A stretch of 64,000 nucleotides of DNA from Aldrovandia affinis (Eukaryota > Chordata > Actinopteri > Notacanthiformes > Halosauridae), in contig JAINUG010000070.1 of NCBI GenBank assembly GCA_029706075.1, forward strand, positions 2,775,500-2,839,499, written 5' to 3'. Every line of letters starts with the position of its first letter. Position 1 is the stretch's first letter. Shown one piece after another: positions 34,099 through 56,378 of this stretch. The notes beneath the pieces were generated by a model. It made no database searches and was not told the origin of the DNA. It saw nothing but the letters and a program-made list of their open reading frames with translations. The position numbers and the translations under genes are program-made.

Positions 34099-37000
34099 TC
34101 TCCCTCCAACAAAAATGTGTGGACCAATATATAAAAGGCACATAGCTAAACAATCTTATGTCGTAGTGCACAAATCTTAATAACAGGTAGGCCTAAGCGT
34201 AACAAAAACAGTTTTGTTTTTTTCATAGGGCAGCGATCCGCCTACACCAAGGCCGAAATTACCATATATATTGGGGGGGACACATCAATCCACATCCCCC
34301 CCAATGTTGACTCCATGGTTACGGCCTTGGCCTACACCCTTTACAATCAATTACAAGTCAAGGACTTGCCTTGGCTTGATGGTGCGACCATACCTTGTGC
34401 GGGGACAAGGTTCAGAGTGATTTGGTTCGCACACAGAACCATGGTGAGCTTCCTGTTCCCCTGATTCCTCTTGCCCAGTGACCTGATCATCTTCGATGGT
34501 CTCAGGTTGCTGTGTGCTGGATGTGTGCTTGTCGTCCCGGGTGTCGAGAAGGTGCCATCGGTTGCGTCTGAACGTTTGTCCATCGCTGGTTTCGATGTGG
34601 TAGCTTCATGGAGTCTCTGCAGGTTGAATGACTGTTGCAGGTTTCCACCTACCATCTCCCTGCTGGAAACGGATGGGTGTTCCAGCGTGCAGCATTGGCA
34701 GGGGCCTCGCAGACCTGTTGTAGTGCTGTTGCTGGCGCCGCTGGCATTTATCTCTCCTTGCTCGCACTGCATCCTGAGGGATTACCTGAGGTCGTAGTTG
34801 TAGTGCTGTTGTGGGTAGGACGGAGCGCAGTCTGCGGCTCATGAGGAGTTGGGCTGGAGATTTGAGGCCATCGACCGGTGTGTTCCTGTACTCCAGCAGG
34901 CTGAGGTATGGGTCTCTCTTGTCCTCTCTGGCCTTTGTGAGGATCCGCTTTGCAGTTTGGACGGTCTTTTCGGCCAGACCGTTGCTCTGGGGATAATGCG
35001 GGCTCGAAGTGACGTGCCTGAAACCCCAGGACTCTGCGAACTGTCCATACTCACGTGAGCTGTAACACGGCCCGTTGTCGCTCACAACTTCTTTCGGTAT
35101 GCCATGTCTAGCGAACACTGCTTTTGTTTTGTGAGTAACAGCAGCTGTGGTGATGTTGGGCAGGCATTCAATCTCAAAATACCTGCTGAGGTAGTCGCAT
35201 ATGACATGGTAGTTCTCAGAGTTCCAGGAGAATAGATCTGTTGCTACTGTCTGCCATGGGTTCTCTGGGATTGCCTGTGAGAGCATGGGCTCCTTTGTGT
35301 TGGCATTGCGGTGTGTTTGGCATATGTCACACTTCCCTACTGTTTCCTCTATCTGTTGACCCATGCCTGGCCAAAACATTATGTCTCTTGCCCTGTGTTT
35401 CCTTTTCTCCACCCCAAAGTGTCCTGTGTGTATGCACTGTAGCATGTGTGCTCTGAGTTTGTGTGGAATGATTATTTTCTCACCCTTTAGGAGGAGTCCA
35501 TCAGCCTCTGTGATCTCATCATGGTGGTTCCAGTATTCACTGATTCGTGGGTCACACTGTTTCCTTGTCTCCGGCTAGCCTGACCGAACGACTTGCTTGA
35601 GGGTGGACAGATGCTCATCCTGAGCTGTGGCTGCCTTGATATCATCTAGCCTGTCTGTACTCACTGGAGCTGCGCTGATGATGGTGTGTACCTGGGTCCC
35701 CATAGCCTCAGATAGCGAACTGTCTTCATCATCCATGGATTTTCTTGACAGTGTGTCGGCCACGGGAATCTCCTTTCCTGGTCTGTGGATGAGGGTTATG
35801 CTGTACTTCTGCAGTGCGAGTATCATGCGCTGTAGACGCGGTGGTGCGAGAGCTAGTGGCTTGCGGAGTATTGTCTCCAATGGTTTGTGGTCCGATTCTA
35901 CGGTGAAACGTCGCCCATAGAGGTATTCATGGAATCTCTTACATCCGTAAAGGACTGCATAGAGCTCCTTTTCGATTTGGGCGTAGTTTTGCTCCGTGCT
36001 GTTGAGCAGCTTGGATGCGTATGCAACTGGTCTGCCTTCTTGCATGATAGTTGCATCCAGGCCATTTTTCGACGTGTCCACCTGGAGCGTCACTTCCTTT
36101 TCTGGGTCGAAATAGGCTAGCACTGGCCCCGGTTCAGCTGTGATAGTTTCCTTCATCTGCTGAAACGCTCTCTCCTGTGCTGTGTCCCATTTGAACTCTG
36201 TTTCTTGTCTTAGCAGGTGTCTGAGTGGTGCACTCACCTCGGCCAGTTTGGGAGCGAATCTGGCGAGGTAGTTCATCATGCCAAGGATCGTCTCCAGCTC
36301 TGCCTCGTTTTCCGGCGGTTGCATGTCTCTGATGGCTTTCACCTTGAGGGGGTCTGGTTTCAGTCAGTTGGCTGTGAGGCTATGTCCAAAATAACTCACC
36401 TCGGACACACAGATGCGACATTTATCCGGGTTCAGTCTCACCCCTCTCTCTCTGGTCCGGCTGAGCATGGCTCTGAGGTTTCTGTCGTGCTCCTCTTTTG
36501 TCCTCCCGAACACAACGATGTCATCCATGATGGCGACCACTCCCTGGAGGTCCTCATATGTCTCGTCTACTCTCCTCTGGAATTCGTCCTGGGCAGACAC
36601 GATACCAAAAGGGAGCCTGCGAAACCGGTATCTGCCGTAAGTGGTGTTAAATGTAGTGAGCAGCGACGACTCCTCACTCAGCTTGATAGCCCAGTAGCCG
36701 GATCTCGCGTCTAGGACGCTGAAGAACCTAGCCCCAGACAGTTTAGATGTTACATCCTCGAGTGTGGGTAGAGGATAGTACAGCCTCAGTATTGCCTTGT
36801 TTAAGGGCCATGGGTCCAAACATACTCTGAGCTTGTGTGTTTTGGGCTTCTCACACACTACTAGCGCGTTAACCCACTGGGTAGGCTCAGTCACTTTGCA
36901 GATTATGCCATCCCTTTCCATGTTGTCTAGCTCTGTCTTTAAGCGTTCTCTTAGGGCAAATGGTACCCTCCGTGGCGGGCAAACCACTGGTGCTATGCTA

Positions 37001-38377
37001 GGGTCTATCCTGAAACTGCATTCCCCTTGGAACTCACCGATGCCTTTGAAAACATCTGAGTACTCACTCAGTATGTTGGACGACTGGGTGTCCCGCTCTT
37101 CCTCACTGGCGTCGGTGACGGCGTATACCACCTTAATGAGCCCCAGGTCTTGACATGCTCTGTAGCCTAGGATGGGTGGGCCGTTGCAGTCCACAATATA
37201 GAACTTCTGGGTTATTGACTTGTTCTTGTACCTGCCTACCAGACTGCAGTAACTGTTCACTCTCAGCGTATGCCCCCCATAGCCAGTTAGCTTACGATTA
37301 TCAGACATTACTGGTGTGCTGGGCAGGAGTGTGGCAAAGTCTTTGGCAGGTATCACATTTGCTTGTGCACCTGTATCTAATTTGAATGTCAATTTTCGGT
37401 TCTGTGGTCCCAGTCCTATATCTGCATACGTGCTTTGCTCATCTTTTCTCTCTGTTGTGACAATGTCCACAAACAGCTCTGAGCCATGATCCTCATCATC
37501 TTCCTCAACAGTGTGTACATCTCTGTGCCCTGTTCTACTTGGGGTGTGGGTCTTTGTTTTACATGCTCTCGCAAAGTGGTTAAATTTCCGGCACTTCAAA
37601 CACTGTTTTCCTTTTGCTGGGCATTCAGTTAGCTTGTTGTGGTGCCCTCCACATGCGCTACAGGCTTTGTTAGCCATCTTCGGGCCTTCACTTGGCCTGC
37701 TAACATGATCTCTGCTAGCATTTCTCACAGTGCCTGACTTTCCCGTCTTGCGGTGTACTGCATGCACTTCATGGCTTTCATTAGCCATAGCTTTTAGCTG
37801 TATCTGCGCTAGCTCGTAGGAGCGGGCTATATCAATTGCCTTATCTAGCGTTAGCTCCTGTCCCTGATTAAGCAACTTTTCACGCACTCTAGGTGAGTTG
37901 GTAGCGAATACTATGTGGTCCCTGACCATTTCTTCACTATTTGCATAGTCACAGTCTTTAACGAGCAGCTTGAGCTCTGTTACAAAGTGTTCAAATGACT
38001 CACCGCTCCCTTGCGTCTTCTCGTTGAATTTGTACCGGGCGAATATGGGATTAGCTTTCGGCGTGAGGTATGCTGAAAATCCGTCGTAGTAGGTTTTTAA
38101 CAGTTTCGCATTGTCCTCTGTTATTGTCCAAGTGTTGCTTATATCCCATCCTTTGTCCCCGATCCACAGTAAGAGGAAACTGCATTTTTCCGCTTCTGTT
38201 CTGCTTTGCAGCGGGCCCGTGAACATGAGTTCGGCATGTTGTTTGAATTGCCGCCACGCATCAGGTAGGTTGGACGAGTCCCAGTCCATCCGTGGGGTAG
38301 GGACACCGAAAGCCTCCATCATCTTCTGTTTTTTTTTTTCAAGTGGGTTCGTAGTCTAACTACTTATTCTGACACCA

Positions 38378-38595: not shown

Positions 38596-39802
38596 CGATC
38601 AGCCACAACATTAAAACCACTGACAGGTGAAGTGAATAACATTGATAATCTCATTACAATGGCACCTGTCAAGGGGTGGGATATATTAGGCAGCAAGTGA
38701 ACAGTCAGTTGTTGAAGTTGTGTTGGAAGCAGGAAAAATGGGCAAGCATAAGGATCTGAGCGACTTTGACAAGGGGCAAATTGTGATGGCTAGACGACTG
38801 GGTCAGAGCATCTCCAAAACGGCAGGTCTTGTGGGGTGTTCCCGGTATGCAGTGGTTAGTACCTACCAAAAGTGGTCCAAGGAAGGACAACCGGTGAACT
38901 GGCGACAGGGTCATGGGCGCCCAAGGCTCATTGATGCGCGTGGGGAGCGAAGGCTAGCCCGTCTGGTCCGATCCCACAGAAGAGCTACTATAGCACAACT
39001 TGCTGAAAAAGTTAATGCTGGCTATGATAGAAAGGTGTCAGAACACACAGCACATCGCAGCTTGCTGCGTATGGGGCTGCGTAGCCGCAGACCGGTCAGA
39101 GTGCCCATGCTGACTCCTGTCCACCGCCGAAAGTGCCTAAAATGGGCACTTGAGTGTCAGAACTGGACAATGGAGCAATGGAAGAAGGTGGGCTGGTCTG
39201 ATGAATCACATTTTCTTTTACATCATGTGGATGGCCGGGTGCGTGTGTGTCATTTACCTGGGGAAGAGATGGCACCAGGATGCACTATGGGAATAAGGCA
39301 AGCCGGTGAAGGCAGTGTGATGCTCTGGGCAATGTTCTGCTGGGAAACCTTGGGTCCAGGCATCCATGTGGATGTTACCATGACATATACCACCTACCTA
39401 AACATTGTTGCAGACTAATTACACCCCTTCATGGCAACGACATTCCCTGATGGCAGTGGCCTCTTTCAGCAGGATAATGCGCCCTGCCACACTGCAAAAA
39501 TTGTTCAGGAATGGTTTGAGGAACATGACAAAGGTGTTGACTTAGCCTCCAAATTCCCTAGATCTCAATCCAATCGAGCATCTGTGGGATGTGCTGGACC
39601 AACAAGTCCGATCCATGGAGATATCACCTCGCAACTTACAGGACTTACAGGTTCTACTGCTAACGTCTTGGTACCAGATACCACAGGACACCTTCAGAGG
39701 TCTTGTGGAGTCCATGCCTCAACGGGCCAGAGCTGTTTTGGTGGCACGAGGGGGACCTACACAATATTAGGCAGGTGGTTTTAATGTTGTGGCTGATTGG
39801 TG
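38593..39802 (+). mobile_element. Tc1-like transposon, nearly complete
   Basis: 1210 bp with inverted ends CACCGATCAGCCACAACATT and its near-complement (aatgttgtggctgattggtg), each flanked by TA. The transposase gene occupies 38738 to about 39775. The compact plan (short inverted repeats, one gene, TA duplication) is that of Tc1/mariner elements. Decay is light compared with the other Tc1-like copies here. Confidence 0.93.
38738..39784 (+). pseudogene. Tc1-like transposase (DDE), one stop and one frame change
   Basis: Cuts and pastes the element through binding of its terminal repeats. The start is MGKHKDLSDFDKGQIVMAR (the Met at 38738 is preferred over that at 38720, since the family text begins there). 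The helix-turn-helix part covers residues 1-60 (SISKTAGLVGCSRYAVVSTY), with GRPRLID near 66-72, the second HTH to about residue 110, then VGWSDESHFLL (first Asp), GSVMLWAMF, and after an in-frame TAA at 39416-39418 the text resumes in the same frame with FQQDNAPCH (second Asp). The third catalytic region (LDLNPIEHLWDVLD) is present at about 39560-39605 but one base out of frame. So all three acidic residues are encoded, but not in one frame. Confidence 0.9.
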
Positions 39803-47751: not shown

Positions 47752-48404
47752 CAGTGGTGGCATTACTCAACAACTGTATTTGCCAATACTTTTTATTGGG
47801 GAAGGCGGGTTCTTTGTTTTGGCTTTTCAACTTTTCTTTTGAACAACTGCACTGCAAAAAAGGAATTTCAAGAAAGTAAAAAAGCCTTGTTTCTGGGGAA
47901 ATTAGTCTTATTTTTTGTCTAAAAAGAAAATTAATCTTGTCAAGCATGTTTTGCCTTAGAAAAGTGATCTTATTTTAAGAAAATATATCCAACTTTTTCT
48001 TAATTAGACATTCCAGCTAATATTGAGCTAGATTTAACCAATAACAAGCTACCACAATGGTTTGGATGATATCCCAGCAGAGGAACAATATTTTTTTCCT
48101 TGTTTTAAGAGTAAGACCATTTGCACAACTTCTTAATTTAAGAATTTCATGAAATGACACCAAATTAAGTTTGTTCATCTATTTTTATTAAAGATGTGTG
48201 GCTATCACAGTAGTGGAATCATTATGTTGACAGAAAACAGAACCTGCCGCTTCACATTTCATCAATCAATCAACATTCCATATTATTACTATTAAGAGAA
48301 TTGTAGTCTTGTAACAGCAAAATACAAATGACTGTGCTGAACAACAACTGCACACAATGGAAAAATACAGTTTAACATGACCCTTAACACAGCAAATGAC
48401 AGAC

Positions 48405-48464
48405 AGACGGACGGACGGACGGACGGACGGACGGACGGACGGACGGACGGACGGACGGACGGAC
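48405..48464. repeat. (GGAC)n microsatellite
   Basis: About 15 GGAC units within the CACTA-like element. The SVRPSVRP-type minus-strand frame is its translation. Confidence 0.97.
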
Positions 48465-48741
48465 ACACACGCGGATAGCAGAAAGTCAGTTCAGGTCCTC
48501 TAAGGAGGCCTATTAAGCAACTGATGAACTGTTTTAACATTTTTTTTTTTAGATTTAGGTTATTTTCTCTGCATGATGATAGAAAATCATGCATGAGCCA
48601 TTAACACTCATGTATCAGCTCTTGTCGGCCAATGATTAACAAGAAATTGCAACGCAAAAGTGTCAAAAACACAGCTATATCTATAAACAATATTTAAATC
48701 ACAGTTTGTCCACCAAAAGGCACCATGTGAAAGTGAACCTT

Positions 48742-49667
48742 TTACAATACATCAGATGACGCTTTGTGTAGTCCAATCACATCACCCAGGTAATATTTCA
48801 TAGGGACATATTCCATATCCTTGTGAGTAAAACTGTAATATGGAGTGAAATCTACAAGGTTATCGGCAGATATCAGTTCAGTTGCTTGTGCCATGTTTGG
48901 GATTTCTATTTTATATGCCATGTAATCTCTATCATAACAAATAGTATTGTGCTGCTGGAACTCAAAGCAATATAATGATGAATTTATTACATAGATATTT
49001 CTTACCAGTCCAAATTCAGGCAAATTATTAGAATTAACAGCACTCACAAGTAATGACTTCTCCCGAATATATTTGTTTCCATTTAGATTAATCCATTTAA
49101 CAGATACTGCATTATTTACTTCATCATTTCCAAGGAAGGCCCTCATTTTTTTCTTTTAAGTATGACATGTTGCTTATTTCTGATGTTGGTCCCAAATTAC
49201 ACTCATTTGCAAAAATAGGGTGTTCAGAACTACTTGCATTCTGACAACATTCATACATTTGATTATGCCTTATCAAAAAGACTTGCAAACATTTTTAAAA
49301 TTAATTTTTAAGGCCCATTGTTTAAAAAGCAATGTTTTGATTCGAATCTCATGCACATGTGACGGACCATTGGTCCCAGTAGTTTAATCTGGGATGGAGC
49401 ATGAATCAAATAGTGTTGTTTGGGAGTGATGTTGTTATCTGGGAAAAGGTTCTTCATATGGTTTAAATGCTGTTCAATGAGTGTTTTCAATTTGTCAATA
49501 GTCTGTAGACCAATAACAGGAGCAAACAAAATTTGAACAATCTCTACAAGTTCAAGAATGATTGTGTAGATGACAGAGGGGTGGTCATTCTGTTTCGCAA
49601 CAGCAGGAATAACCAGCCATGTATTATCACATACACGCGACTTATTATAAACTATTGTGTAATTCAA
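48742..49667 (-). pseudogene. CACTA-type transposase, C-terminal remnant
   Basis: Two minus-strand frames. The upstream one (49667-49308) reads YNKSRVCDNTWLV, VIYTIILELVEIVQILFAPVI, then ITPKQHYLIHAPSQIKLLGP and RHMCMRFESKH. The pattern PKxHYLxHxPSxIxxxGP...MRFExKH is the conserved block near the C-terminus of CACTA/EnSpm-type transposases (DUF4218-like in plants). The downstream frame (49146-48742) has the C-terminal tail with FGLVRNIYVINSSLYCFEFQ and YMAYKIE. A frame break separates them, and the N-terminal zinc-binding and DDE catalytic parts are absent. The assignment rests on recalled family pattern, not on a search. Confidence 0.65.
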
Positions 49668-50202
49668 TAATGTTATTTATAGAAATTAATTTGGGCAAAT
49701 GCGAAATAAACGTATTACGATCAGCCACTCCCCCCCTCCTCCCTGGAAGAGATGGTACGATCCAAATGTGTCTACGCATTTTTTTTTTACCCTACCGCCA
49801 AAACGACCAGCCGTTGCATTTGAAATGCACACACCTGCCGCTGTGACTATTCTGTAGTAGTTTGTGGACGTCAGTGAAGACAAATTATGGATGGACTGGA
49901 CGACATTGCAATTGGCACACTCAGAGGTAAGCTATTATGTGTTGTATTAACGTTATGTCAAAGTTATGTTGTGTTTTACGTAGCTAACCTAGCTTGGCAA
50001 GTTAGGGGGGGAGGGGTCGTCTTTTGAGCTGACGTTAACTTACTCCTACAATATTTATTTATTTTATATTTGGTATGTTTGTTGGCGCAAGGAGCTATGA
50101 TAATAATTAGAATAAACCCATCCCTCATTTTTTTCGGCGTTTTTATGAAGTTTAAAGCAGCATTTTAATGGAAGTTGTTACCTCACGTAAGTGCCTTAAA
50201 AC

Positions 50203-50830
50203 AGGGTTCCGCGCTGGTCTTAAAAAGCCTTAAAGTCTAAAATCCAACAATCCGATTTTTAAGGCCTAAAAAGTCTTAAATTTTAGTTATTAGGTCTAAA
50301 AATGAGATGCTAGGTCTTAAAAGTGAGATTAGCTCTCTATTGTGTTAAAAATGTTTTGAGTGTCCTGCAAAGAAATCAGTCCTATCTATTTACACGGAAA
50401 TTAATCAAGCTGGAACCAAAAAAATGTAAATTCGCTGCCCCGGGAGAAATTATTGGCGAACGAAGCTACGTATCGTTCGAGTTGGTTGAACGTGAGACAA
50501 GAGCTAGCTAGCTAACTACTCGTGTTTTGTTTTGAGTTTCCTCGCTATGTAATTTGATAAGCCATGGGCAAGTGTAGGTTTAACTTTAACTTCACTTTCA
50601 CTGTCTTTATCCATTTTCTTCACTGCTCGGCTCAACCGTGCTCAACGTGCTTGCTAAGTGCAACTGCAAAAACAGTCCCCTCTCAAACAATATCCCGCGG
50701 TGCTACGTTCCGCCGCCAGCGTTCGACCTTGCTACATATTCACCGGTATTGCGGTATTATGAAAAATTCATATCATAAAAAATAACACCGGTATGGTGCA
50801 CCGCTCAGCACTACTGCAGACCCTATATTT
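50203..50830. repeat. repeat-like sequence in intron 1 of the SAMD3-like gene
   Basis: 50203-50330 starts cagggttccgcgctgg followed by recurring gtcttaaa/aaggcctaaaaagtctt words, similar to a hAT-type fish repeat. 50735-50800 has ccggtattgcggtatt opposite aataacaccggta. I could not define the ends. Confidence 0.4.
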
Positions 50831-51356
50831 GAGTAGAAGTATCAATACCACATCGTTAAATACTTCATTACAGATAAAAAATCTTGCATTTAAAATCCTC
50901 CATAAAGCATTAAAGTTAAAGCACAATTTTATTCTGCAAAATGTGTCAGTTTTCTTCAAGTAAATTTAGCTGGTAATGCTTAAGTGGGTTCTAAATGCAG
51001 GATTTTTACTTGGGATATTTGTATTTTGTGGCAGGGCTCTAGACTAACTTTTGATACCAGTGAAAGAGTTATAAAGTTATAACCGAAACACAGGAAATGT
51101 CACAATGTAAAAATGAATCGGTAAAATATTCTCACTTGTAATGTACACAAGGTTGAGTGAATTCAGTGATAAGTTCAGTGTCTTGGCACTAAATGTAACT
51201 TCTCTATGTTCCAGCTGCTAATATTGGAGAGGAGTTACTGCCTTCACTCTCCCGGGATGACATCAAAGATCTGTTTCCGGTCCTGAAAATTTCCTGAGGC
51301 GCCGGGCTATATGGCTTGTTGTGAATAAAGAAGAAGAGGTCAGTTGTATATCTATT

Positions 51357-51668
51357 ACAGTATAACAAACCTCAGTACACCCCTGTACAATATCACTAAA
51401 ATGTAAAATAAGTATACATCCGGTCCATTTAATAACATTTTATTTATCTTTAGCCAAAGCCCAAGAGGAATGAAGCTAATTCATTTGAAAAAGAGAAATG
51501 TTTGATCAATTAAAAATTATGAAAGGTCCACATTAAGAACCAACTGCAACAGCTTTGTTCTTCTTGGGCTTTGGCTAGAAACAAATACAATTGTATTAAA
51601 TTGGCAGGATTTGTAATTATTTAACATTTTAGTTATATTGCACAGGGGTGTACTCACTTCTGTTGCTT
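51357..51668. mobile_element. MITE with long inverted repeats in intron 2
   Basis: Outer arms ctcagtacacccctgtacaa and the complement of cacaggggtgtactcac pair over about 40 bp (through actaaaatgt/acattttagt). A second pair, agccaaagcccaagag and ttcttgggctttggct, lies inside. About 310 bp, able to fold into a hairpin. It would be transcribed as part of the gene's intron. Confidence 0.75.
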
Positions 51669-54069
51669 TGAGATCTATTCAACAATAAATGTAAAATTAA
51701 GTGCTTATGCAACTTTTTAAAGTGTAAATGTATTTTAGGCAGAGACTGCTGCTGAACTACAACAACCATTAACCACTGGAGGCACTGACATTTCGAAAGA
51801 GGAGCCCAACACTTCAAAGTTTGTGACTATGTCCAACCCAGAATACATAGTCTTCACGGACAGTGAGCTTGAACATGTGCGACGCTCCTACTTCGAGCAG
51901 AAGCGGCTGGGGACTGAGCACAGCGTGGCCTTATCCAAGGAGCTCCTTTGCCGACTCATAAGAAACACAATGACTAATATGATTTCAATCGCAAGGGCCA
52001 CAGAGGACTCCAGATACCCCAGCAAACATGAGGTCAATGCCATGGCGAAGCGATTGGTGGAGTACTACCCAATGATAAAAGACAGGTCATCATCATCAAA
52101 CACTGAGTGGGTAAGTAGTAGCTTTTTCTCACTATTGCTCATATTTGATGTTTACGGTAAAAACTTGAATCTTTTAATGCTTACTATTTGTACCCTTCAG
52201 GAACATGTTTCTAAAAAGCTCATGAAGAGACTCTCAAATGTCAGAAGTCCAAGGAAGGCCAAGGTTCCTCCTTCAAAGAAACCGCGACAGGATGGGGATA
52301 TCTATGCAGATGTTTCAACAAGTGACTATGATGGAGATTCCAGTGCATCAACCATTATTCTGGAAAAGTCACCTGTTAGAGCCAGCACCCCAGTGCAACA
52401 CCAGGATAGCAGTGATGAAGCATGTATGTATTTAATACGATCTGTATGCATCTGTGTCTTTGGTAGAGAAAACCTTTTTAAGAAAACATACGCCACCAGC
52501 AAGTGGAGATGCAACAGCTTTAGTGTCTGTCCAGCGATTCGAGTATTTCATTGTTCAATATTGCAATATAATAAGTGCATAAATGAATAAATCCTGTTAC
52601 TTCCTGAGTTGCTCCCTAACAGTCTAACACCCCCTCTCTTTTTATGCCTTCAGCTGGTTCAGTTAACCTCTTGGACAGCCAGAGAACCCAGGCAAGACAC
52701 TACAAGACTCTTCAAATATTATACAAGTCCAAGAAGCCAAACAAAGCTGCGGTAACTCATTTGCTGAACCTGGAGTTTGAGTCTAGAAGACGCTTCATCA
52801 CCTACGATGTTTTAAAGGAGCAAGACAGACCGACAAAGATTCTAGAGGCTTACCCATGTTTCAGAGAAATGGATCATGTAAGTAATTTGAGTAGAATATA
52901 AATCCTTTATTGTTATTGTATTAGATATAAAGGAAATTAAGTAAATGCTCACCCCCTGTAAACAGTTCATTATCAAACTGTTTAACCAGGACTCGCAATA
53001 GAGATTATTTTGTATTTATCTGTATTTGAATGTATTTTTCAGGTCCTGGATGAGCTGCGGAGAATTATTCAACCTACCAATTCCCAGTACATCTCTGAGA
53101 TGAAGGACAGATGGGAAATCTTCTACTCAAAGGTCCAGTTTTATGGTATCATGAAGAAAGCCATGAAGCCTCCAAAAACTTTGAATGGAGGTGAGTTCAC
53201 AATGCCTTGATTTGTCCAAGTTTATATTTTGTGATCTCATGAGTGGTTATTTATGGTACTGCTTGTATTGTGCCTTTTCTGTCAAACCAGTGGAGCATGC
53301 TGCAGCTGTGTTCAGAGCCCTGCCACTGCTCTTCCCATCCAGCACCATGCCACCTAGAAAGCTGGGCGCAAACAGCGAGGCTCTTTTTTCCATGTCCTTA
53401 CGGTGAGACTTGCTGTATTGTATTTTATACTGTATGTTGCAGTTATTCATACATACATTATATGTTCTGTTTGGTTATTCTTTGTGATAGGTGTTTGTCA
53501 TTTTCACAATGACAAAAGTTGAAGTGTTGTCCATGCTGTAATTTTGGAGGAGTAGCTTTATTGAAACTAGCGGTGGTGTTTTCAGTATTTGCAATGTTCA
53601 GCAAAGAATATATATACAAAATATTTTCCCTCAGATATCAGGGGTTAATGCGGCTAGGTTTTTTTTTTTTTTTTAGAATTATCATTTGACCATTCAGTGT
53701 CCTAGTCCAGGTCAAGGTGTGTGTTACTTGTGTTTTTCTAATCTTCTACATTGACTTTTGTCATCTAGACTTCAGAAGACCCTGATGGTTTCCTGCACCA
53801 ACGACCCCTGTCTTGTCCAGTTGTGGTCGTTTCTGAAGACAACTGCATGATCGCCATTGGGAGCACGCCAGTGGCCACCTTCGACAGTGAGAGGTTTCAC
53901 GAGGGACTGCTCTACCTCATGGCATATTATTATGCCCTTCACCTCACTTACCCGAAGTGTATTTCCACACTGCTCTCAGTATTGCAAACTGAAATTCTCC
54001 AAGATTCCATCCATGAAGGAGATTCAACCCCCTCCTACAAAAAAGCCATTGGCGAGTGGAAGTCCTTCA

Positions 54070-54097
54070 TTGAGTGAGTGAGTGAGTGAGTGAGTGA
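54070..54097. repeat. (GAGT)n short array spanning the stop codon
   Basis: Six GAGT-type units begin with the terminal GAG TGA of the SAMD3-like reading frame, so the stop codon is the first of several in the array. Confidence 0.85.
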
Positions 54098-54630
54098 ATC
54101 TCTTTTCTTTCTGTTCTCCTTTGTGACAAAAATCTGTTTCAGTTAGTCTTGCCACATGTTTATTGGTGTTATTTCTAAAAAATATATATTGTTCCTCTGG
54201 GATATTTTGCAATTTTGTGTTTTTATTTTCTAATAGGGCCGCAACTAACGATTATTTTCATTATCCATCAATCTGTTGATTATTTTCTCGATTAATCGGT
54301 TAGTTCTTTAAAAGGTCAGAAACATTTTCAGTTATTGTTTCCCAAAGCACAAGATGCAATTTAAAATGTCTTGTCTTTTCTCGACCAACAATCCACATCC
54401 CAAAGATACTGTATGCAGTTTACTTTCATAGAAGACTGAAGGAACTAGGACCAGGAACCATGTTCATGTAGAGTTATAATGCAGTCTGCCGATGGAGAAA
54501 GTGGTTGAATGTTGTCAAATGCTTTTCAATGCAGCAGTTGGGATTTTGTCTTAATAAAAAAAAGAAGCTAAAAATAAGAATGCCTCTGGTGCCTTAATTT
54601 AAGACAATGTCACTTATTTTTACTATGCTG

Positions 54631-54935
54631 TTTGAAGAAATTGTGTCTTATTGTAAGATTTTTTTGCTAATTATTAATCTTGATTTAAGGTATACATTCT
54701 TAAAGTCAGCTCAATTAAGAGACCAATGTATCTAGTTTGAAGAAATTGTGACTTATTGTAAGCTTTTCTGGCTAATTATTAATCTTGATTTAAGGTATAA
54801 ATTCTTAAAGTCAGCTCAATTAAGACCAATGTATCTTGTTTGAAGAAATTGTGTCTTATTGTAAGCTTTTTTGGTAATTATTTATCTTATATTAAGGTAT
54901 AAATGCTTAAAGGCAGCTCAAACAAGAGAAAAAAA
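54631..54935. repeat. three tandem 103-105-bp subterminal repeats
   Basis: Units start at 54631, 54736 and 54839 with TTTGAAGAAATTGTG and contain cttattgtaag, taatcttgatttaaggta, attcttaaagtcagctcaat and taagaccaatgtatct. They lie 0.2-0.5 kb inside the right end of the CACTA-like element, where CACTA elements usually keep transposase-binding repeats. Confidence 0.9.
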
Positions 54936-55163
54936 TACTAATTTTAAGTTAATCTATCTTAAATGACTAACTTTGTATTGCTTGTTATAAGCACAACTTA
55001 CTTAAATTTGGTCTCTCAGTGGCTAGATTTATGTCCTAGTTTTAAGAATTCTAGTCAAGCAAAATTGGCTTACCCCATTGGCAGATTTTTTTGCTTGATA
55101 TAAGACAATTTGATTAGATTTAAGAATATTTGGCTTATTTCTAGTGGGGGTGTTTTTGCAGTG

Positions 55164-56378
55164 TGTCTTTTAATAAACATTTGTAAAACATCTCTGGTTG
55201 TGCTGTGGAGTGTGGGAGGAACGATCTTGCACTGTGGTCCTGGCTCACTTGGTGCCCTAGACGAGATCAGCCATACCCCCCCAAGCCCCAGGAAGGCCAC
55301 GCAAAACAAGTACCTATGTTGTAACAAGGTACAATAGGCAACCCTTTTATTTGAAGAAAATGCACTAATGGACAAAGAAATACTGAGAAATATTGCACAA
55401 ATATTAAATTGTATAAATCCAAGATGTATACAAATTTAAATTGAACAATATATAAATACGGCATTCCTTTAAAAGGAACAAAAATAAGGAGGTGCTATCC
55501 AAGACAAATAAGAACACTGAAACACATTGCACACAAAAAATTGAAGGTGCACACAAAACTCAATTGAACACCGTGGAGTTGCACCTTTTCAATACTGGCT
55601 GAGTCTTGCTCAATGTGGCTGAAAGTTTATTATGCACAAACCAGACTTTAGATAGCTTCTGCTGTTTTGCTGCTAGTTTAGCTGGACTGTACGCATGTTA
55701 ACTAGCTAGTAGTAAGCTCATAGTGATGTAGTATAGTGCTATTACCCCAAAAAAGTAACAGAAAATGTTCATGATAGTCAAGAAAGGTGTTTTTTAGAGG
55801 ATTGTTCAGCGGTATTATAGTCAAAGTAATGTTGGCTAAATGCTTGAACTACTAGCTAGCATTATCTTTAGTATAGCAATTGATGCAATACCTAGCCAAC
55901 ACGATTATTTACTAGACTACTTAAAAACATAACATAATGTTCATGATGAGATGACATAACACATACCTTTATCTTTAGCCTGTTTCTCTTCTCATTCTCT
56001 TCACTCTTTTCTAGACTGAAATCCCGAAGGCTTTGATCTTTTCATTTTGGCATCATACATCAATGTGTGTGTGACACAATTGTTTGTGTGACTAAACAAT
56101 TGCCCATCAATGCAGGGTCAAGAGACTAAACCATTTCACCTTGGTGGTGTACAGACTCGTTTTAATTTTTTAATTTATCATTATAAGATATAAGAGCAAG
56201 ACTGAGTGTGAGTTTGAGGCGCTATTGACCTCCATATGGAGAGTAGGAGACTTCAGAGGCTGACAGACAGCAGAAGCAGTGGGATGTCACATCGCCCCTG
56301 GCGCAGGTGAGCAAGACTGAAGTGGCCCTAGGTGATGCGCCTCCTGGCCTATGTCGCCTATGCCAGTATCCGCCACTG
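55164..56378 (-). mobile_element. hAT element remnant, 5' end and first exon
   Basis: Minus strand: end CAGTGGCGGATACTGGC at 56378, leader with ggaggcgcatcacctagggc, then a first coding exon at 56045-55967 and AT-rich sequence up to the CACTA-like end. The stretch at 55240-55262 (ttggtgccctagacgagatc) resembles internal or terminal text of the same group. Confidence 0.6.
55967..56045 (-). pseudogene. first exon of a ZMYM1/TTF-type hAT transposase
   Basis: Reads MKRSKPSGFQSRKE, then a stop, then REx and EEKQAKDK, ending at a GTATGT donor (55966-55961). MKRSKPSG followed by a Lys/Glu-rich run is the typical start of hAT-derived proteins annotated as zinc finger MYM-type 1-like. Two in-frame stops show it is dead. 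The remaining exons are not present. Confidence 0.6.

Follow-up and report, generated by a model that had tools for sequence, protein, structure and literature searches.

A SAMD3-like gene inside a CACTA/EnSpm-like transposon lineage of the halosaur Aldrovandia affinis

When a spliced gene lies back to back with a transposase, does it belong to the transposon, or is it a host gene that the transposon has captured or merely landed beside? The question is raised by a 64,000-nucleotide stretch of the Aldrovandia affinis genome (contig JAINUG010000070.1, positions 2,775,500 to 2,839,499 of the forward strand), here called the window, in which an internally deleted CACTA/EnSpm-like element (47850..55163) carries the remains of a transposase gene on the minus strand and an eight-exon gene on the plus strand. 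We call the latter SAMD3-like, a provisional name, SAMD3 being absent from the databases compared. Judging from copies throughout the window's own 1.22-Gb assembly, which is the genome searched here, a particular CACTA/EnSpm lineage of this genome very probably has the SAMD3-like gene as its regular second gene. A first-pass annotation of the window had suggested that transposons may spread the SAMD3-like family, or even use it. The spread is borne out in this genome; that the element uses the gene and does not merely carry it is the reading we tentatively favour, on the basis of what appears to be a joint history of the two genes.

Co-occurrence of the gene, the transposase and the element ends

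Exon 8 of the SAMD3-like gene has at least 76 matches in the genome, which resolve into 60 places once pieces are merged, and exon 3 likewise has 76 matches. Counting a place as paired when a CACTA transposase lies upstream of it on the opposite strand within 20 kb, 51 of the 60 are paired, 34 of these 51 at a distance of 4.1-4.4 kb, where chance alone would give about 0.001 for each place. Pairing extends to 38 of 39 places at 90% exon-8 identity or more, to 9 of 10 at 70-90% and to 4 of 11 below 70%. Seen from the other side, a search of the genome with the transposase fragment returned 150 matches, which reduce to 107 merged places with second pieces and the lowest-scoring rows left out; a very diverged second gene beside one of these could escape notice. 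Transposases of the element's own family (at least 80% identity) are paired with the gene in 47 of 48 cases, the lone exception (C757:2279068) sitting at a contig end, and more distant ones in 4 of 11 cases at 50-80% identity and in none of 48 below 50%.

Element ends, too, lie at similar distances from the gene within this genome, a check that the first-pass annotation had proposed. Among 20 other places fetched for end analysis, all of high identity (94-100%), 16 have a left CACTGCAAAAA end (within 8.2 kb), situated 5.4-7.4 kb ahead of exon 8, and 18 have a right end 1.18-1.58 kb past the exon 8 start. Three of the four copies initially without a left end revealed one in a longer stretch (C1825, C2230 and C1002), while the fourth (L022) extends beyond the sequence fetched; as for the two without a right end, the stretch of L018 contains a run of 100 Ns and the last bases of L019 have been replaced. 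Together with the window copy, these places yield 18 complete elements, 16 short and 2 longer.

The window element is bounded by 11-bp inverted CACTGCAAAAA repeats (47850..47860 on the plus strand and 55153..55163 on the minus strand) that face each other 7.3 kb apart, just as the first-pass annotation had it. They show the CACT(A/G) start by which CACTA/EnSpm elements are recognized, and CACTGCAAAAA recurs in the 15 other complete copies, in C2230 and in C1002. The repeat is present three times in the window, compared with 0.08 times expected by chance; the third occurrence, at 39490, lies directly past a frame (38690-39418) that we take to be Tc1-like, and is unrelated to the element. These counts, together with the sharing of the ends across copies, rule out a chance origin of the ends. 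Just inside them lie the clustered subterminal repeats that are a further mark of CACTA/EnSpm elements (CMC clade): the right subterminal region (54400..55163) is dense in TTAAG/CTTAA-type motifs and the left one (47850..48250) contains the same motifs, such that 6 of the window's 12 richest 200-bp bins for TTAAG, CTTAA, TCTTAT and ATAAGA are found here, with 8, 5, 4, 4, 3 and 3 matches against a window mean of 0.5. Another rich bin, with five matches, is at 50200 in the middle of the element. The right region also contains three direct repeats of 91 nucleotides (54630-54927), spaced by 105 and 102 nucleotides.

A TG duplication flanks the window copy (47848..47849 on the left, 55164..55165 on the right), and a 2-bp duplication (TG, TA, CA or TT) flanks 16 of the 18 complete elements, of which 16 were scored by script and 2 read from their flanks. 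The 3-bp duplication that plant CACTA elements make was seen in none of the 18; the short target-site duplication typical of CACTA/EnSpm elements is present here in a 2-bp form. One of the copies (L017) is also compatible with a 4-bp duplication, its flank being a TG repeat. At another, L026 (C1803:958489-968488), two elements abut, right end to left end, with no duplication where they meet.

Empty sites document the insertion. A genome-wide search with the window flanks joined by one TG gave 40 rows, six of them crossing the junction, and these six were re-aligned: two paralogues (L040 and L043) read AACTG followed directly across the junction by TCTTTTAATAA, free of gaps and with a single TG, whereas L042 has a gap immediately next to the junction and L038, L039 and L041 are not clean there. 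Another copy, L014, is inserted in the 3' end of a long interspersed nuclear element (LINE), the empty counterpart of which is present in the window itself (116-327), with no gap at the junction and a difference at one of the two duplicated bases. Sequences lacking the insertion, which the first-pass annotation had proposed to look for, are therefore present for the window copy, in two of six paralogues, and for L014. Six UnaL2 LINE 3' elements are scattered over the window (at 270, 2978, 6535, 29448, 61186 and 62726), the one at 270 falling within the stretch that is the empty site of L014.

Collinear segments of the window element are about 97-100% identical in the 15 other complete copies, and substitutions between the 15 other complete short copies and L012 amount to 0.1-0.4% by region, which suggests that the element spread recently. 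In seven places, the window among them, exon 8 matches without a break, its 102 amino acids being 100% identical. Since it is a recently spread element that carries the SAMD3-like gene, many such 'genes' in this genome are transposon parts. The left arm of the window element contains an array of GACG tandem repeats (48398-48465), near which alignments to other copies break.

Longer elements and their deletion derivative

The complete layout of the lineage is visible in longer elements, two of them complete at 9.9 and 11.8 kb and a third, about 14 kb long, in which other sequence has taken the place of the right end, which combine CACTGCAAAAA ends and subterminal repeats with a transposase on one strand and an eight-exon gene of about 516 amino acids pointing away from it. 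The longest transposase frames of the element's own family measure 734 (C1825 and C928), 666 (C2230), 532 (C1) and 517 amino acids (C1002), and all five places also carry the SAMD3-like gene. The C1825 element, which starts at 423267, bears on its minus strand the 734-amino-acid frame and a zinc-finger-like exon, the zinc-finger matches of which lie below the cut-off; a distance of about 0.4 kb, as calculated from the alignment, separates this exon from the ATG of the plus-strand SAMD3-like gene. The interval of about 220 bp (here about 210 bp) that the first-pass annotation had placed between the start sides of the two genes does not survive this comparison, because the transposase start is deleted from the window copy and its interval accordingly does not reach from the start of one gene to that of the other.

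DUF4218 is a domain of CACTA transposases. A minus-strand protein of the window (49308-49676) matches it with 31.3 bits against a Pfam cut-off of 27, in agreement with the transposase C-terminus reported there by the first-pass annotation, and the 734-amino-acid frame is above the cut-off as well, which places the transposase among those of CACTA/EnSpm elements. The Pfam model Transposase_21, which is possibly too plant-biased, has no match at E ≤ 1 in the 734-amino-acid frame; what we take to be D..D..CxxC..(M)H..LEG-like motifs can be seen by eye in its translation.

Compared with these longer copies, the window copy is the C1825 element minus 4.3 kb, the loss, at the junction 49568..49569, having removed the core and N-terminus of the transposase and left a C-terminal part (48742..49569, minus strand) that is frame-broken here. 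The same junction is common to 13 of the 16 complete short copies, with a variant of it in L016 and L028 and a different deletion in L025, so the common form is a deletion derivative: it lost the transposase core, kept the second gene and multiplied. In the window (48742-49676), L011, L012, L020 and L023, the deletion fuses about 36 upstream codons in frame to the transposase C-terminus. The resulting frame of 310 amino acids, the two parts of which stand apart in C1825, is open in 4 of the 16 complete copies.

As for the spliced plus-strand gene of the first-pass annotation, its architecture holds, with eight exons and a GT donor and AG acceptor in all seven introns, but the window copy is broken. 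Exon 1 (49887..49926) begins with the ATG at 49887 and is followed by exons 2 (51215..51338), 3 (51739..52110), 4 (52201..52423), 5 (52654..52877), 6 (53043..53190), 7 (53291..53402) and 8 (53769..54078), the last containing the stop. The frame is interrupted in exons 2 and 7, and both breaks are private to the window, occurring in none of 14 other copies with exon 2 and none of 15 with exon 7. An uninterrupted reading of about 516 amino acids, with the same splice sites, is found in 3 of the 12 copies in which all eight exons were mapped (L012, L020 and L021); four copies with one or more exons unmapped (L016, L017, L025 and L028) stand outside the 12, and the mapped part of L028 is free of stops. 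Intron 2 contains an imperfect palindrome (51364..51664) resembling a miniature inverted-repeat transposable element, with two 124-nucleotide arms that are 79% complementary, and this palindrome is matched in other copies too. Elsewhere in the window, large minus-strand frames (34347-38355), which by their motifs are presumably those of a long terminal repeat retrotransposon, adjoin the Tc1-like frame.

The second protein and its divergent relatives

The second protein contains a basic stretch near residues 171-210, including KKPR and encoded in exon 4, that resembles a nuclear signal. No Pfam family reaches its cut-off, and the sole recurring one, Med31, was discarded as lying below it (0.0035 with exon 8, 0.027 with the whole protein). 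An N-terminal sterile alpha motif (SAM) domain, by which the SAMD3 family is recognized, is absent among the Pfam matches of the exon 1-2 pieces and of the complete 516-amino-acid protein up to an E-value limit of 10, at which HMMER filters drop most weak matches. Neither the spliced protein nor an exon-8 profile has a match in the PDB, and a weak match of an exon-3 profile to ribosomal L24 (0.0036) was dismissed as chance. Structure models built without alignments were weak (pLDDT, the predicted local distance difference test score, 66 for exon 3 and 60 for exon 8), and fold searches with them yielded nothing at E ≤ 0.001. No relatives were found in viral contigs, phages or plasmids, and a single weak match among genome contigs (L001, 33 residues), which falls within the stretch of a large bacterial gene in a clostridial contig, was likewise attributed to chance.

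Four divergent places were fetched (L031 to L034). Two of them, which represent more distant lineages, retain CACTA features: L031, whose exon 8 is 67% identical, bears a CACTGCAAAAAA left end together with a divergent transposase, and L032 (58%) has a right TTTTTTGCAGTG end 1.1 kb past its exon-8 match. Against L012, the proportions of silent (pS) and amino-acid-changing (pN) differences in the divergent second proteins are 0.72-0.85 and 0.25-0.31 over 178-252 codons, and those of the L031 transposase against C1825 are 0.81 and 0.27 over 326 codons, figures drawn from local matches, which favour conserved parts, and biased the opposite way by the decay of divergent copies. Within these bounds, the more distant lineage represented by L031 keeps the pairing, with silent change saturated and amino-acid change low in both proteins, and protein change appears to be restrained in transposase and second protein by similar amounts.

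A search for a clean host SAMD3 gene, for which three of the nine unpaired places were fetched, found none; a fourth unpaired place is a piece of 20 residues at the edge of L026. Two candidates were set aside: L034 is a broken copy resembling L032, and the exon 8 of L033 resembles that of the CACTA-borne L031.

Competing explanations and known systems

Our leading, still tentative, proposal for what the second protein does is by analogy: it would be a TNPA-type nuclear helper that binds the subterminal repeats or the promoter, possibly shared, between the two genes and in this way assists excision or counters silencing, with the transposase acting in trans on full and deleted elements alike. 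Such a role would explain why the second protein has been kept together with the transposase.

Several observations weigh against a second gene that regularly serves the element. Nine of the 60 second-gene places have no detected divergent transposase, and below 70% identity no more than 4 of 11 are paired; L031 shows no right end in the fetched stretch, L032 no left end or transposase within 10 kb, and L033 (62%; 10 kb looked at) and L034 (52%) neither end. Two complete copies (L020 and L026) lack a 2-bp duplication, and the second gene is broken in 9 of the 12 fully mapped copies, window included. Within the young family, variation is 0.0014 in exons and 0.0029 in introns, a difference that we rejected as proof of selection in view of the equally low value of the truncated transposase fragment (0.0012). 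Exon changes, moreover, comprise 22 nonsynonymous and 9 synonymous ones, so that the data do not show the second gene to have been under recent selection. Other EnSpm lineages in this genome seem to do without the gene, which argues for a lineage-specific helper. Finally, the helper role is proposed by analogy, since searches with the second protein in Pfam, the PDB and by structure models brought up neither a known domain nor a convincing relative of solved structure nor a recognizable fold.

The nine unpaired places and the lack of ends around L033 would suit a dispersed host gene family beside which CACTA elements merely landed; this explanation is nevertheless virtually out of the question, and refuted for the main family, given that 51 of 60 places have the transposase where it is expected, in side as in strand, that ends recur at similar distances with 2-bp duplications and empty sites, and that L033 itself resembles a CACTA-borne copy. 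Recent capture, by which a host SAMD3-like gene would have been amplified as a Pack-CACTA-style passenger without serving the element, fits a deletion derivative that carries the gene without a full transposase, the broken state of most mapped copies and the lack of visible selection within the young family. We consider it improbable, because an entire multi-exon gene is present, not a fragment, because 4 of the 11 places below 70% identity have a divergent transposase, and because the joint divergence, in which silent change is saturated while the protein has changed little, about as much as the transposase, strains it. Equally improbable is a role for the SAMD3-like protein, or for the truncated transposase kept with it, in repressing or regulating the copy number of the element: the common short form does keep both the gene and the fused 310-amino-acid frame, open in some copies, yet size or chance can yield abundance, and the second gene is broken in the majority of the copies mapped. 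A more serious competitor, which we nonetheless regard as doubtful, is an anti-silencing or regulatory factor acting outside the excision complex, in the manner of promoter reactivation by TNPA; divergent genes around a short intergenic region would be in keeping with it, but the idea is drawn by analogy. A TNPA-like nuclear helper stays the likeliest of these roles, and a regular second gene of one CACTA/EnSpm lineage the explanation that we prefer.

With this work, a defined second gene is available for one lineage of animal CACTA elements, and with it a starting point for asking whether a gene of vertebrates descends from it by domestication. Human SAMD3 has about 520 amino acids, similar in length to the element's protein of about 516; the likeness between vertebrate SAMD3 and the fish SAMD3-like gene is one of name and length, and the two differ in that no SAM domain was detected in the element protein. 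It seems unlikely on present evidence that vertebrate SAMD3 arose by domestication of this lineage's second gene, in the way that RAG1 arose from a transposase; if it did, fish genomes would contain both the domesticated gene and the transposon family, still alive. If our findings are general, SAMD3-like genes in fish annotations would largely be transposon genes and should be masked. A zebrafish RNA-sequencing study places a samd3-like gene among genes of the peroxisome proliferator-activated receptor (PPAR) pathway (PMC7037442), the kind of reading that masking would then change. None of the literature matches listed, including PMC8945855, PMC11258905 and PMC7037442, links SAMD3 to a transposon in the text available, most subscription papers and Repbase lying outside the search.

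The layout described here recalls maize En/Spm, which has CACT ends, clustered subterminal repeats, two element proteins and abundant deletion derivatives. TNPA binds the subterminal repeats there, and it is by such a role that we would liken it to the second protein. According to PMC1636069, which covers the roles of TNPA and TNPD in maize En/Spm, both come from one alternatively spliced transcription unit, whereas two divergent genes are present here.

Animal CACTA relatives with extra proteins, and fungal EnSpm elements with an added gene, are already known (PMC1636069 and PMC12730594). Among the former, the TRC elements, such as SmTRC1, resemble the present element as animal CACTA relatives with 2-bp duplications (in 7 of 14 copies) and additional spliced proteins; their ends start with CCC, unlike the CACT found here, and the proteins SmTRC-PrA and SmTRC-PrB are reported to have no detectable relatives (PMC1636069). 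Fungal EnSpm elements, described in PMC12730594 as making 3-bp target duplications and carrying a TET/JBP gene thought to help against silencing, offer a likeness as CACTA-type elements with an extra gene. That enzyme, however, has been passed among several superfamilies (PMC12730594), whereas the second protein described here is tied to one lineage and accompanies none of the 48 distant transposases in this genome.

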